DNA of 25,980 bases from a virus. The notes below the pieces were generated by a model. That model had not been told where the DNA came from and ran no database searches. It saw nothing but the letters and a program-made list of their open reading frames with translations. Each line of letters opens with the position of its first letter. Position 1 is the first letter of the stretch. The stretch spans positions 1-25,980 of the IMG/VR virus record IMGVR_UViG_3300027836_000476; one strand, 5' to 3'. Of the stretch, positions 1 through 8,744 are shown in pieces. The position numbers were made by a program, and so were the translations under genes.

Positions 1-936
1 TACTGGCCACAACTTAATGTTGCCTTTGCTTAGAGCTGGTTTCATCATGTTAGCGAGATCGTTAGCAGAGTTACCTGCTGATCCTGCGCCAGAGATCATA
101 TGTGCCTCGTCGATGAACAGCACAGTCTTACCTTTCTTAGTAAGGGCTTTTAACACTTGCTTGAAACGTTCTTCAAAATCTCCACGATACTTACTGCCAG
201 CAAGCATCGCACTAATATCCAGGTTATAAACTGTATAGTCTTTTAGAAAGTCTGGTACAGCACCCTTAACAATATTGTAAGCAAGTCCTTCTGCTATAGC
301 AGTCTTACCTACACCTGGATCTCCTACTAGGATAACGTTGTTCTTGCTACGTCGACCCATCGCTAGCGCAATATTTTCTAACTCTTCAATTCGACCAATA
401 ACAGGATCAATCTTATTCTTCTTAACAGAGTCGTTTAAGTTTGTAGTAAATGATGCCAGTGCTCTGCTACTAGAATTATCTTGTTCTTCTACTTCTTCCT
501 GCTCAACCGAATTGTTAATGTAGTCGGCAAATTTATCTTTATCGATATTTCCTTGAGCAATATAGAAATGTGCCCAGCTACGTTTTTCGCCAATCATAGC
601 AAGGAACACATCAGTTGGTTCAATCCTCTGGCGTCCGTTAAACAATACTTGTGTAAACGCACGATTAAGTACACGCTCAACTGATTGAGTTTTCTTTGGC
701 TTAACTACTACATCTTGGATGGTAATTTCGGCGCACTTATGTTGAAGATATTCTCCAAGATTTTTTCTTAGATTCTCAGCATCGGCACCGTATCCTTGAA
801 TAGTATTAGTAAACGACTCATCTAACAACATGGCAAACAATAAATGTTCAATTGTTAGATATTCGTGATGTAATTTTTTAGCAGTATCAATTGCTTTTTC
901 AAAAACTGCTTGTAAATTGTCGCTTGGTTCAACCAT
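1..936 (-). CDS. clpA: ClpA/ClpB-type AAA+ unfoldase (5' part; runs off left edge)
   Basis: Only the first 312 codons are present; the frame is still open at base 1. The start is the ATG at 936-934, which overlaps the end of the peptide deformylase gene by 8 bp. Residues 1 to about 140 look like a Clp N-domain (for example AKKLHHEYLTIEHLLFAMLL near residue 18, with a second related half around 75-115). An acidic linker follows at about 150-160. The first AAA+ module begins with KIDPVIGRIEELENIALAMG, has Walker A GDPGVGKT at 205-212 and Walker B LFIDEAH at 273-279. Clp ATPases unfold proteins in the cytoplasm, either feeding ClpP (ClpA/ClpC) or disaggregating aggregates with DnaK/DnaJ (ClpB). 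The middle domain and the second AAA+ module that would tell these apart lie outside the window, so the symbol is provisional. The neighbouring dnaJ gene makes a disaggregase role as plausible as a protease role. Confidence 0.85.
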   Translation of the reverse strand, partial: MVEPSDNLQAVFEKAIDTAKKLHHEYLTIEHLLFAMLLDESFTNTIQGYGADAENLRKNLGEYLQHKCAEITIQDVVVKPKKTQSVERVLNRAFTQVLFNGRQRIEPTDVFLAMIGEKRSWAHFYIAQGNIDKDKFADYINNSVEQEEVEEQDNSSSRALASFTTNLNDSVKKNKIDPVIGRIEELENIALAMGRRSKNNVILVGDPGVGKTAIAEGLAYNIVKGAVPDFLKDYTVYNLDISAMLAGSKYRGDFEERFKQVLKALTKKGKTVLFIDEAHMISGAGSAGNSANDLANMMKPALSKGNIKLWPV

Positions 937-1417
937 TTAATTTCCTTTGTTTTTTCCGTGCCATTTGTAATTTTAAATCACTTACATATTCAGTAAATGT
1001 TATTCCATCTAAATGATCCAATTCATGCTGGAAACATCTAGAGTCAATGCCATCAAGTTCTATTATACACTGTTTGCCAGCGTTGTCAAGATAAGCGGCA
1101 GTAATTTTATTATGTCTTTTAACGTTAAGCCATAAATTAGGAAAACTTAAACACCCTTCTTGGTCATGTATTAGATCATTATCGCCAATTAAAATATATG
1201 GATTAAAACATCCTACTTCACGCCCATTTTTTAACTGTAATACAAATACCCTACGTAACAGCCCAACTTGATTAGCGGCAAGACCAATTCCTTTGTTAGC
1301 TTTCATTATTGCTAACATTTCTTGTTCTACTACTGCGGCATTAACATGATTTTTAAAATCCCAAGGTTCGGCTTTTTGTTTAAGTATTGGATTAGGATCG
1401 TGAATTAATTTCATCAT
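929..1417 (-). CDS. def: Peptide deformylase
   Basis: The protein has 162 aa and carries all three signature motifs of peptide deformylase: GIGLAANQ (43-50), EGCLSFP (87-93, metal-ligand Cys89) and QHELDHLDG (130-138, ligand His131 and His135 with catalytic Glu132). The enzyme removes the formyl group from N-terminal fMet of new proteins. Phage versions are common in marine T4-like phages and are usually shorter than bacterial ones. This copy keeps a short Lys/Arg-rich C-terminal tail. The gene overlaps dnaJ by 26 bp upstream and the Clp ATPase gene by 8 bp downstream, so the three are almost certainly one translationally coupled unit. Either of two adjacent ATGs (1417 or 1414) could be the start. 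All catalytic residues are present, so activity is expected. Confidence 0.95.
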   Translation of the reverse strand: MMKLIHDPNPILKQKAEPWDFKNHVNAAVVEQEMLAIMKANKGIGLAANQVGLLRRVFVLQLKNGREVGCFNPYILIGDNDLIHDQEGCLSFPNLWLNVKRHNKITAAYLDNAGKQCIIELDGIDSRCFQHELDHLDGITFTEYVSDLKLQMARKKQRKLNG

Positions 1418-2261
1418 TAAGTTGTTTTAACCTTGCTACTAAATCTGGATCGGTTACTGCCGGCGACTTAATATTTACTACAATTACAAATCTTCCTTTG
1501 TATCCCGAATGGGGATTAGTAAATCCTTGTCCTGCGCTGGCAAATTCTGTACCAACATTTACTCCGGGTCGCATGTCAATAGGCATGGTGTTGCCAGTAA
1601 TAGACACGGCAACTTTTTGACATCCCACCATTGCTTCTATTGGTGTAATGTCTATACTTGTATATAGGTCATCGCCTCGGCGTTCAAATTTGCCAGCAGG
1701 GTCTCCTAACACAACAATGGTTACATTTAAATGACCCCGAGGTGCGTGAGGAAAACTATCATCGCCTAGTCCTGCGTATCTAATAGTTTCACCGTGGGTA
1801 ATTCCGGGTGGCACATTGATGACTACAGTTTGTGGTTTACCACTAGGCAATCTATAGTTAGCTTCTAACTGTTTTCCTAAGTAAGAATCTAGCAAGCTGA
1901 TTTGACATTGAATATTTAAGTCTCTATTTCGACGTTGATTCCCACCACGCATATGACCAAAAATATCACCAAACGGGTGACCTTGCCCAAAGGGATTACC
2001 GCCACCGCTAAACATATCACCAAACGGATCCCCTGATGTAAATCTTACTTGTGGACCGCCACCGTACATACGTTGTTGATCGTATTCGGCTTTCTTTTGG
2101 GCGTTGCTTAACACATCATACGCAACACTTATATCTTTGAATTTGGCTTGATCCCCACCCTTGTCTGGGTGGTGTTTATTAGCCAAGCTTCGATACGCTT
2201 TCTTTATTTCATCTGGGCTAGCTTGCTCGCCAACGCCTAGGGTTTGGTAATAGTCAGTCAT
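1392..2261 (-). CDS. dnaJ: DnaJ-family co-chaperone (type II, CbpA/DJLB-like)
   Basis: The protein has 289 aa. A J-domain occupies residues 1-65 with the DnaK-activating HPD at 31-33. A Gly/Phe-rich linker follows at about 66-115 (GGGNPFGQGHPFGDIFGHM and similar). The C-terminal substrate-binding domains run to the end (for example INVPPGITHGETIRYAGLGD). The cysteine-rich zinc finger of classical DnaJ is absent, which makes it a CbpA/type II J-protein. It would deliver substrates to the host DnaK in the cytoplasm. The gene is first in an operon with peptide deformylase and a Clp ATPase. The ATG at 2261 is only about 14 nt from GGAG, so its Shine-Dalgarno is poor. A consensus sigma70 promoter lies 32-60 bp upstream inside a stem-loop. 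J-proteins are uncommon in phages. Confidence 0.95.
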   Translation of the reverse strand: MTDYYQTLGVGEQASPDEIKKAYRSLANKHHPDKGGDQAKFKDISVAYDVLSNAQKKAEYDQQRMYGGGPQVRFTSGDPFGDMFSGGGNPFGQGHPFGDIFGHMRGGNQRRNRDLNIQCQISLLDSYLGKQLEANYRLPSGKPQTVVINVPPGITHGETIRYAGLGDDSFPHAPRGHLNVTIVVLGDPAGKFERRGDDLYTSIDITPIEAMVGCQKVAVSITGNTMPIDMRPGVNVGTEFASAGQGFTNPHSGYKGRFVIVVNIKSPAVTDPDLVARLKQLNDEINSRS

Positions 2262-3717: not shown

Positions 3718-4338
3718 TTATTTAACGCTTTCGAAGATTTTCTTCTGTTCCTTATACCATTCTTGCCATGCTTCTAGTTTGGCTGCGTTTTCGTGGCAGG
3801 AGCCGTAGTTTTCAACGACTCTGTCAAGGAGCTGACTGGCTTTAACTTCGCTGGCGGCTCCATCAGTTGCGGCGGCACGTCCGGCCACTTCATTACGACT
3901 GGCGCTGTCGTGCAAGCTGACAGTAGACTTAGGCAAGCTACAGCTAGAATCCAACTGCTTACCGGCAACTTCTTTGATAATTTCTCTGTTAACATAAACG
4001 TTTTCCTTCACTACTTTAATTTTAGTGACTACCCTTTCTTGTATAACTGTGTTTACTTTTTGACTCTGCTCTTCGGCAGCTTTTACTTTTGCTTCTAATT
4101 CTGCTACACGAGCTAACCATGCTTGTTGTACCCCATGTCCGCCAAACAAATAGGCACCAACTACTAACAATACAACGCCAACTAACTCTGCTGGAAGTTT
4201 GTACTGACCCATCATAGGAATCCATCTTACAAGTTTACTTCCGATGTAAAGACTAACTCCTGCTATTGTAAGTATATAATATACCCAAACAAAAATGCTA
4301 TCTGGAATAAGACTCAACATCCACTGAATTTGTCCCAT
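3718..4338 (-). CDS. Inner-membrane spanin (Rz-like) with two membrane segments
   Basis: The protein has 206 aa. There are two hydrophobic segments, about 15-34 (VYYILTIAGVSLYIGSKLV) and 52-66, then a long coiled coil (about 72-128, AELEAKVKAAEEQSQ), then a C-terminal domain with Cys133 and Cys181. Its SCSLPKSTVSLHDSAS and ENYGSCHENAAKLEAWQEWY segments resemble the C-terminal part of Rz-type i-spanins. I-spanins span the periplasm and fuse inner and outer membranes with an outer-membrane lipoprotein partner. That partner is encoded inside this gene in another frame (3774-3995), which strongly supports the call. Typical Rz has one N-terminal membrane segment; two is odd and changes the expected topology. 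The gene starts 6 bp after the endolysin stop. Confidence 0.75.
   Translation of the reverse strand: MGQIQWMLSLIPDSIFVWVYYILTIAGVSLYIGSKLVRWIPMMGQYKLPAELVGVVLLVVGAYLFGGHGVQQAWLARVAELEAKVKAAEEQSQKVNTVIQERVVTKIKVVKENVYVNREIIKEVAGKQLDSSCSLPKSTVSLHDSASRNEVAGRAAATDGAASEVKASQLLDRVVENYGSCHENAAKLEAWQEWYKEQKKIFESVK
3774..3995 (-). CDS. Outer-membrane spanin lipoprotein (Rz1-like), embedded in the i-spanin gene
   Basis: The 73-aa reading frame lies wholly inside the i-spanin gene, shifted by one base. It has a basic start (MLTEKLSKKLPVSSW), a hydrophobic core and the lipobox LSAC with Cys28 as the lipidated residue, then a short Pro-rich mature part (KWPDVPPQLMEPPAKLKP). That is the classic build of an Rz1 o-spanin: a small Pro-rich outer-membrane lipoprotein encoded within Rz. 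The ATG at 3995 has GAAGGA 8 nt upstream, a good Shine-Dalgarno within the i-spanin coding sequence. It would bind the i-spanin C-terminus in the periplasm to complete host lysis. Automatic annotation is likely to discard it as an overlap. Confidence 0.85.
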   Translation of the reverse strand: MLTEKLSKKLPVSSWILAVACLSLLSACTTAPVVMKWPDVPPQLMEPPAKLKPVSSLTESLKTTAPATKTQPN

Positions 4339-6354: not shown

Positions 6355-6378
6355 TCTATGTATTAGTTAAATAATAGT

Positions 6379-6440
6379 GTAGGACCTCTGTAGTAATCGA
6401 GGCGGTCGCTACAAGTCCTACTTTTACATTAAAGTAGGAG
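6379..6440 (+). promoter_or_regulatory. Structured phoH leader with two mutually exclusive hairpins
   Basis: Hairpin A: GTAGGAC (6379-6385) pairs with GTCCTAC (6415-6421). Inside it TGTAG (6389-6393) pairs with CTACA (6409-6413), and CGA (6398-6400) with TCG (6406-6408) around the loop GGCGG. Hairpin B: TCCTACTTT (6416-6424) pairs perfectly over 9 bp with AAAGTAGGA (6431-6439), loop TACATT. The segment 6416-6421 belongs to both, so they cannot form together. Hairpin B covers most of the phoH Shine-Dalgarno AGGAG (6436-6440), 8 nt before the ATG. Together they look like a translational switch. I know no described RNA family with this shape. Confidence 0.6.
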
Positions 6441-6448
6441 CAACTTAG

Positions 6449-7165
6449 ATGACAAAAAGAGTGAAAAAACGCTTTACATCAGAAGTTAAAGTCATTGACT
6501 TTCAACCATACCTTCCTCAAAAGAAGCAACGTGTGAGCCTTCAGGCGCGAAATGCCAACCAGAAGATATACATACAAAAACTCCAAGACGAACAAAAAAG
6601 CATTATATTTGCTATCGGGCCAGCTGGCACAGGCAAAACAATGTTAGCAGTTCAACATGGAATTAAATTGTTTCAAGAAGGTATAGTAGACAAGATCATT
6701 GTGACTAGACCCGCCGTTTCCGTAGATGAAGATTTGGGATTTTTACCAGGTACGCTAAATGAAAAAATGGCCCCGTGGACAAGACCAATATTTGACGTAC
6801 TTGGAGAATATTATAAACAAACAGACATAGCTAAAATGCTAGAGGATGGAACTATTGAAATTAGCCCGCTCGCTTATATGCGAGGCCGAACATTTAAAAA
6901 TGCTTACATTATCGCTGACGAGTGTCAGAATACCACAGCTAATCAAATGAAGATGCTACTTACACGCTTAGGTGAAGGATCTAAGATGGTAGTGACAGGC
7001 GATTTAGCCCAAGCAGATCGTATGAACGATAATGGACTAATAGAATTTTGTAATTTATTATCGAAGAAGCCCGGACTTAAACATATTGATATAGTCCAGT
7101 TCGATCATAAAGATATTGAAAGGCACGATGCCGTTAAGGAAGTGTTATCAATATACGGTGATTAA
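6449..7165 (+). CDS. phoH: PhoH-like P-loop ATPase
   Basis: The protein has 238 aa. Walker A is GPAGTGKT at 57-64. The other conserved PhoH blocks are TRPAVSVDEDLGFLPGTLNE (86-105), the Walker B-like IIADECQN (154-161) and VTGDLAQ (172-178). PhoH proteins are widespread in marine phages; they have NTPase folds and a proposed RNA-related role, and in some bacteria they respond to phosphate starvation. The basic N-terminal extension (MTKRVKKRF) could bind nucleic acid. It is the only plus-strand gene here, standing alone between a structured leader and a terminator, so it has its own transcription unit. Confidence 0.95.
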   Translation: MTKRVKKRFTSEVKVIDFQPYLPQKKQRVSLQARNANQKIYIQKLQDEQKSIIFAIGPAGTGKTMLAVQHGIKLFQEGIVDKIIVTRPAVSVDEDLGFLPGTLNEKMAPWTRPIFDVLGEYYKQTDIAKMLEDGTIEISPLAYMRGRTFKNAYIIADECQNTTANQMKMLLTRLGEGSKMVVTGDLAQADRMNDNGLIEFCNLLSKKPGLKHIDIVQFDHKDIERHDAVKEVLSIYGD

Positions 7166-7188
7166 AAAAGGGCCTTCGGGCCCTTTTT
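7165..7188. terminator. Bidirectional terminator between phoH and the clamp loader gene
   Basis: AAAAAGGGCC (7165-7174), a TTCG tetraloop and GGCCCTTTTT (7179-7188) form a perfect 10-bp stem with a U-run on either strand. It directly follows the phoH stop and faces the stop of the clamp loader gene, so it can end both converging transcripts. Confidence 0.93.
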
Positions 7189-8345: not shown

Positions 8346-8744
8346 TTAGTAATGTGGACGCATAAAATCTTCTGGGCTGTGAGTCGACCCGTGACCAGGT
8401 GTGCTGTGTTCGCCAGAATAAAAATCATTCGGTGGTTCGTCAGTACTTAGAAGAATAGCCTTAGTGTCAACTCGCCGGATAACAAATTCATCACCGTCAT
8501 CACCTCTAACAGTAACTCCTCGAGTCCAACGACCGTGTTCGATTAGAATCCATTCTCCTACTTGAACATCCTTTTGGTCTTTACCGATAGCCCAAACTTT
8601 ACCCCAGCGCGGTTTAATACCCTCACTTTTTCCGTCGTCACTTCTGATAATAATACCACTTGAAGTTTTTTGTTCTTCAAAATTCATGTCTGTAATTAAG
8701 ACATTATCTCGAATTGGAATAAGTTTTCCTTGTACTACATTCAT
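8346..8744 (-). CDS. GroES/gp31-like co-chaperonin
   Basis: The protein has 132 aa. The first 95 or so residues have the Cpn10 plan: IPIRDNVLITDMNFEEQKTS, a mobile-loop-like SGIIIRSDDGKSEGIKPRWG, then GKVWAIGKDQKDVQVGEW and a closing beta strand (RRVDTKAILL). Phage gp31-type proteins replace GroES as the lid of host GroEL during capsid folding. A His/Pro-rich tail (residues 103-132) is extra to the Cpn10 core. The start overlaps the stop of the 92-aa gene by ATGA. Sequence similarity to bacterial GroES is weak, so the assignment rests on the fold pattern. Confidence 0.75.
   Translation of the reverse strand: MNVVQGKLIPIRDNVLITDMNFEEQKTSSGIIIRSDDGKSEGIKPRWGKVWAIGKDQKDVQVGEWILIEHGRWTRGVTVRGDDGDEFVIRRVDTKAILLSTDEPPNDFYSGEHSTPGHGSTHSPEDFMRPHY

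Follow-up and report, generated by a model that had tools for sequence, protein, structure and literature searches.

phoH is a common phage marker gene, usually called a phosphate-starvation gene, although what it does in phages is a matter of dispute (PMC4360716). In the window, by which the whole 25,980-nt stretch analysed here is meant, the phoH gene follows a leader that can be folded in two ways, and the question raised by this locus is whether the leader controls translation of phoH by changing its fold. If a conserved RNA switch acts on phoH alone, the dose of PhoH would be tightly set after transcription, and the switch would provide a direct handle on what PhoH responds to.

Gene context

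As the preliminary description had noted, phoH is the only accepted stand-alone plus-strand gene in the window; every other ORF on this strand is either short or overlapped by a larger gene on the minus strand. It lies between virion genes encoded on the minus strand and a gene for a clamp loader. The terminator-like hairpin directly after its stop (Table 1) suggests that phoH is a one-gene unit. This hairpin was not reported by the terminator scan, probably because its T run sits in the stem.

The closest PhoH from a cultured phage (54% identical) is that of PA5oct, which has the same local order of DnaJ, structural gene, phoH on the opposite strand and, further on, a chaperonin; in Deifobo, a PA5oct relative, a downstream gene is annotated as a clamp loader. 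At this level of PhoH identity, the window is taken to derive from an uncultured phage related to the PA5oct group. In uncultivated freshwater Far-T4 phages phoH also lies near structural genes (PMC4360716), and a Far-T4 connection of the window is retained as a lead. Genes for peptide deformylase, DnaJ and a GroES-like protein cluster with the virion genes around phoH (window positions 929-2261 and 8346-8744, minus strand).

Two folds of the leader

Positions 6379-6421 had been described as a long interrupted hairpin. Its two main helices are present in the sequence at exactly these coordinates: P1 (GTAGGAC 6379-6385 / GTCCTAC 6415-6421, 7 bp) and P2 (TGTAGT 6389-6394 / GCTACA 6408-6413). The CGA/TCG helix with loop GGCGG placed at its tip is present here but is not conserved, and the conserved apical helix is ATC 6396-6398 / GGT 6404-6406. 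The competing 9-bp pairing of 6416-6424 with 6431-6439, here called the SD hairpin, is likewise found at exactly the coordinates given earlier and masks most of the AGGAG Shine-Dalgarno (SD) sequence ahead of the ATG at 6449.

RNAfold of 6361-6460 gave -24.1 kcal/mol, compared with -17.1 +/- 3.0 for shuffled sequences (z = -2.3), which by itself is moderate support; the real support comes from homologues. The minimum free energy (MFE) structure contains a third hairpin, P0, which was absent from the preliminary description and pairs UGUAGGACC (6378-6386) with GGUC.G.CUACA (6404-6413). Because P0 takes the 3' strand of P2, the leader swaps partners twice. Fold A consists of a1-b2 (P1) and a2-b1 (P2) and leaves the SD open; fold B, the MFE structure, consists of a1-b1 (P0) and b2-SD and closes it. 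The proposal of mutually exclusive folds that open or hide the SD thus stands for the class of leaders to which the window belongs (class I), where they are conserved, with the amendment that the exchange is a double one involving P0 and not the sharing of one strand. The two folds at these coordinates are far beyond chance.

A transcription attenuator was rejected: no U run lies between the SD hairpin and the ATG, and the UUUU after P1 belongs to the SD stem. A candidate pseudoknot between CCTC before P2 and GAGG in the P2 loop was rejected, being absent from the GACGAAC class and others on inspection, uncounted.

Table 1. Features of the phoH leader and gene, in window coordinates
Feature	Position	Strand	Partner or basis
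TAAATA promoter-like box, T4 late-type	6368..6373	+	Ends 5 nt before P1; in nearly all relatives; putative function
a1 in full, TGTAGGACC	6378-6386	+	Partner 6404-6413 in fold B; resembles Shine-Dalgarno region
P1 5' strand, core of a1	6379..6385	+	Partner 6415-6421 in fold A
a2, P2 5' strand, TGTAGT	6389..6394	+	Partner 6408-6413; covariation
Apical helix ATC/GGT, loop GAGGC; class I motif GGCGGTC	6396..6406	+	Conserved in class I only
b1, GGTC-G-CTACA	6404..6413	+	Forms the 3' side of P2 in fold A and, with a1, P0 in fold B
b2, GTCCTAC, P1 3' strand, anti-Shine-Dalgarno	6415..6421	+	Partner a1 (fold A) or SD region (fold B)
SD hairpin of fold B	6416..6439	+	9 bp; 95.6% of cells paired; class I duplex energy
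Shine-Dalgarno AGGAG	6436..6440	+	Direct sequence
phoH, 238 aa	6449..7165	+	Pfam PF02562 PhoH, E = 3.3e-74; phrog_170
Terminator-like hairpin, AAAAAGGGCC-TTCG-GGCCCTTTTT	7165..7188	+	Direct sequence; directly after phoH stop

Occurrence of the leader

Protein and DNA-pattern scans of viral contigs yielded several hundred phoH leaders, and the same leader precedes phoH in hundreds of contigs of uncultured phages. In class I, every pattern match that could be judged directly precedes phoH, apart from one in a contig without phoH (L210) that was dismissed as chance. Fifteen further pattern matches in bacterial genome contigs, none with the surrounding leader, were also judged to be chance. A covariance model was built from 49 distinct class I leaders, and the covariance search proposed in the preliminary description was performed with it on 64 sources (824 kb). 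It returned one strong match per phage, at the phoH leader; all further matches scored less than 28 bits and correspond to these leaders read on the reverse strand. At 62-71% PhoH identity, most relatives still give a correctly placed match to the model, the better ones with E values between 1e-5 and about 0.1. The element was thus found only before phoH, one chance match aside.

The leader DNA has no match in cultured phage records. In agreement with the earlier statement that no known riboswitch class was recognised, no Rfam family (4227 models) matched the window or 16 relatives at the gathering cut-off, and at E <= 10 the best match of the leader was ES239, at 11.6 bits a chance hit. No description of a phoH leader RNA was found in the literature covered, mostly open-access journal papers. 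As far as these databases and this literature show, the leader is previously uncatalogued.

Covariation

In the 49 distinct class I leaders, 98.5% of the fold A cells and 97.4% of the fold B cells are paired, compared with 22-61% for slid partners. Two-sided changes within this set are sparse overall (3 cells in fold A, 4 in fold B), because the strands are so conserved. The P0 cells are 99.1% paired with zero two-sided changes, and the SD hairpin cells are 95.6% paired, three of the leaders showing a double change from UA to AU there. Double changes in P1 occur as GUAGAAC/GUUCUAC in L006 and as GUAGGGC/GCCCUAC in L018 and L273, and the SD hairpin takes the form CUACAUUU/AAAUGUAG in L041.

The preliminary description had made its case depend on compensatory base changes among homologous leaders, and these were found in the diverged relatives: 12 of the 16 fold A pairs carry two-sided changes, in 45 cells, against 6.7 +/- 2.3 in shuffled controls and 7-14 with slid partners. 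This wide alignment was fitted to the covariance model, so it leans towards structure, and it contains a few reverse-strand echoes. In a measure independent of the model, 91% of the 168 distinct leaders have a best 7-bp P1 helix with a score of 15 or more; with shuffled interiors the share is 5%. On the PhoH tree, P1 variants such as GAAGGAC/GUCCUUC, UAGCAGG/CCUGCUA and GUAGGGC/GCCCUAC are found at several points; the core AGG/CCU of P1 is constant while the flanks covary. These compensatory changes mark the leader as a conserved structured RNA that is putatively cis-regulatory.

Variation in architecture was also seen. P1 is lengthened to GUAGGGCCU/AGGUCCUAC in L106 (1197-1277), where the P2 junction is different, and to GUAGGACGA/UCGUUCUAC in a subclass comprising L282, L223, L322 and L040, whose CCCC-rich SD-hairpin loop might contact the GGGCGG loop. 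The phoH leader of L399 has a single short hairpin (GUAAUC/GAUUAC), and the two-tier structure has apparently been lost there.

The alternative fold in relatives

The second pairing of a1 was evaluated against a null that preserved the P2 helix, base pairs and composition included, while the order and orientation of the pairs were randomised. In distant leaders, in which the P2 sequence is unrelated to that of the window, the mean a1-b1 energy was -10.3 kcal/mol, compared with -5.1 for the null, and the excess reached p <= 0.05 in 23 of 29; the combined p of about 1e-12 over 15 clades is optimistic, since these clades are related. Clear cases are L385 (GCAGGA with UCCUGC), L355 (GUAGGAC with GUCCUAC) and L375. 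Such an excess is not predicted by a static two-tier hairpin.

The duplex between b2 and the SD region behaves differently in the two groups. In class I it averages -9.9 kcal/mol, compared with -4.6 for shuffles, and is significant in 40 of 49 leaders, whereas in distant leaders (PhoH 62-71% identical) it averages -5.6 against -4.1 and is significant in 6 of 39. These figures supersede an underpowered test with shuffled b2. Given how weakly the distant leaders sequester their SD, the family conserves the hairpin and a1-b1, and not necessarily SD control. The comparison of homologues thus points to a family-wide hairpin with its a1 alternative, and to tight SD control in the window's class only; in that class, the two exclusive folds respectively expose and hide the SD, as expected of a translational riboswitch. 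The apex of P2, including an apical GGC that has the look of a recognition site, is conserved in class I only and is unrelated in the relatives with PhoH 62-71% identical, which retain the helices and the strand logic despite this difference.

The TAAATA box and the probable 5' end

In 142 of the 168 leaders, the distance from AAATA to the start of P1 is exactly 5 nt. In the 90-nt stretches that precede 23 selected gene starts of the window (2070 nt in total), TAAATA occurs 7 times against 0.64 expected, and it is therefore probably a late-type promoter element of the phage. The convincing occurrences are those placed 26-36 nt upstream of genes, and boxes at window positions 3724, 6320, 11699 and 16398, all on the minus strand, lie at this distance. 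If transcription starts where a T4 late promoter would set it, the RNA would begin at the base of P1, which by this analogy is the probable 5' end. A transcription start downstream of 6421, against which the preliminary description had cautioned, is not predicted computationally, as the promoter-like box lies upstream of 6379; the start that it indicates is putative.

Folding energies and the growing chain

When the window's leader was folded as a growing chain, P0 formed at the outset, was replaced by P1 and P2 while the SD had not yet been made, and returned together with the closed SD hairpin. Fold A reached -19.9 kcal/mol before the SD emerged and the final state -23.4, and the end states are about 4 kcal/mol apart at most. 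The path therefore includes the SD-open metastable intermediate that is characteristic of kinetic leaders, on an MFE path computed from equilibrium energies only. A start 2 bases later shifted the final balance to fold A by 0.6 kcal/mol, and the exact 5' end therefore matters.

Class I leaders are mostly predicted to be closed at equilibrium, with P1 at about 17% on average at 37 C. The predicted share of fold A is a few per cent in most of them, 81% in L006 and 98% in L342, so that in these models the A/B balance varies among class I leaders and is not tuned alike. Temperature, which had been named as one possible determinant of the fold, is not favoured: the predicted probability of the SD hairpin rises from 0.78 at 5 C to 0.93 at 45 C. 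A heat-opened RNA thermometer was rejected on this prediction, as the closed state is not lost on warming over this range and the trend is wrong.

Proposed mechanism and alternatives

On balance, the phoH leader is probably a co-transcriptional strand-exchange switch of translation initiation; the leader structure is well supported, and the predicted switch moderately so. The switch would take up the 5'-terminal ~65 nt of the phoH transcript and pass between two states by strand exchange during synthesis. Along the RNA the strands are a1 (UGUAGGACC), a2 (UGUAGU), b1 (GGUC-R-CUACA), b2 (GUCCUAC) and a3 (the SD region, GUAGGAG). Initially a1 would pair with b1; as b2 emerges it would capture a1 (P1), and b1 would move to a2 (P2), leaving the SD open. 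Once a3 emerges it would rival a1 for b2, and where a3 wins, the SD would be hidden and a1 would return to b1. The most likely role is either to confine PhoH synthesis to newly made late transcripts, and thus to a limited time, or to let PhoH, an ATPase resembling RNA helicases, feed back on its own message. By such folding, alone or with a helper, the phage could probably raise or lower its PhoH output. We infer control of translation, its direction and its trigger from this arrangement of strands, and kinetics or PhoH feedback are likelier triggers than a single metabolite aptamer.

The main rival, though an unlikely one, is that a 5'-terminal stem-loop shields a long-lived phoH mRNA from 5'-end-dependent decay, with the SD hairpin secondary and no regulated switch. 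5' stem-loops stabilise mRNAs, and the 5-nt distance of P1 from AAATA in most leaders probably puts it at the very 5' end; moreover, the two-tier hairpin is nearly universal and SD pairing is weak in distant relatives. This explanation does not account for the second partner of a1, b1, found against a null that preserves P2, for the constant AGG/CCU core of P1 beside covarying flanks, or for the 9-bp SD hairpin of class I. The preliminary description had also allowed for a ligand that decides the fold, and a metabolite-sensing translational riboswitch with P2 and the apical loop as aptamer would agree with the UNAUC and GGC of the P2 apex, which are nearly invariant in class I and only partly explained by pairing, and with an SD fold that excludes fold A. 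It is nevertheless quite improbable: the leader serves phoH alone and never a metabolic gene, no Rfam family matches, and a single metabolite aptamer is disfavoured because the apex is conserved only within class I, while helices and strand logic extend beyond it.

Least probable of all is control by transcript length as in the T4 genes e (lysozyme), soc and I-TevI, where, according to PMC3014915 and PMC2988022, the SD is hidden in early transcripts and freed by a late start inside the stem. The ingredients described there, a late-type box beside a structure and an SD hairpin, are present here, but the box lies upstream of every switch strand, so that late transcripts would keep the whole SD hairpin and the T4 arrangement is reversed. 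Somewhat doubtful, and yet more plausible than any of these, is an autogenous operator, in which PhoH would bind or unwind its own leader and so set the fold; it is a possible trigger of the strand-exchange switch favoured here, not a full alternative. It would fit the exclusive link to phoH across wide divergence, the T4 precedents of gp32 and gp43 acting on their own messages (PMC3014915), and a review citing PhoH2 work that states RNA helicase activity for the PhoH family, sequence-specific in some members (PMC7824862). Against it, the helicase work cited in that review deals with PhoH2 proteins, and PMC5101352 describes YbeZ as having an unknown biochemical function.

Comparison with known systems

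Nearest to the strand-exchange switch in working principle, as modelled, are the kinetic leaders of MS2 maturation, hok and H. pylori aapA3, in which mutually exclusive hairpins that form sequentially during transcription time the access of ribosomes (PMC6733600). They differ in that the phoH leader belongs to a DNA phage, has no known antisense RNA and reuses both strands of its first hairpin. With translational riboswitches it shares a two-state leader with anti-SD and anti-anti-SD strands, but it has no family-wide aptamer core, known ligand or Rfam match.

The RBS hairpins of T4-type late genes (e, soc, I-TevI and Aeh1 mobE) resemble it in combining a local SD hairpin with a T4-late-type box in the leader, as described in PMC3014915 and PMC2988022. 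In those genes, however, late transcripts begin inside the inhibitory stem and so lack its 5' strand, whereas the phoH box precedes the whole element, and the phoH leader adds the anti-anti-SD strand a1 and a second exchange through b1. Membership in this early/late group was rejected, since the box at 6368-6373 lies upstream of 6378-6439 and late transcripts would retain the stem. The T4 gene 32 and gene 43 operators likewise place a structured leader ahead of the coding sequence for a phage protein that binds nucleic acid; the available sections of PMC3014915 describe no alternative SD fold for them, and binding by PhoH is putative in the present case.

The leader might constitute a new family of leader RNAs, an assignment that is offered tentatively. 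In such a family the 5' strand and the SD would be near-copies competing for a shared anti-SD, the second partner of a1 would lie inside P2, and a self-timed double exchange, possibly read by PhoH, would serve phoH only in a large group of uncultured phages. The leader would also be a small, naturally occurring case of strand exchange during transcription, and well over a hundred different versions of its sequence are available for study. In the PA5oct group itself (L201 1299-1390 and L241), the phoH hairpin AUGUAAAGAU-UAG-AUCUUUAUACAU follows directly after an ATAAATA box; this form has no evident anti-SD and occurs in culturable phages.
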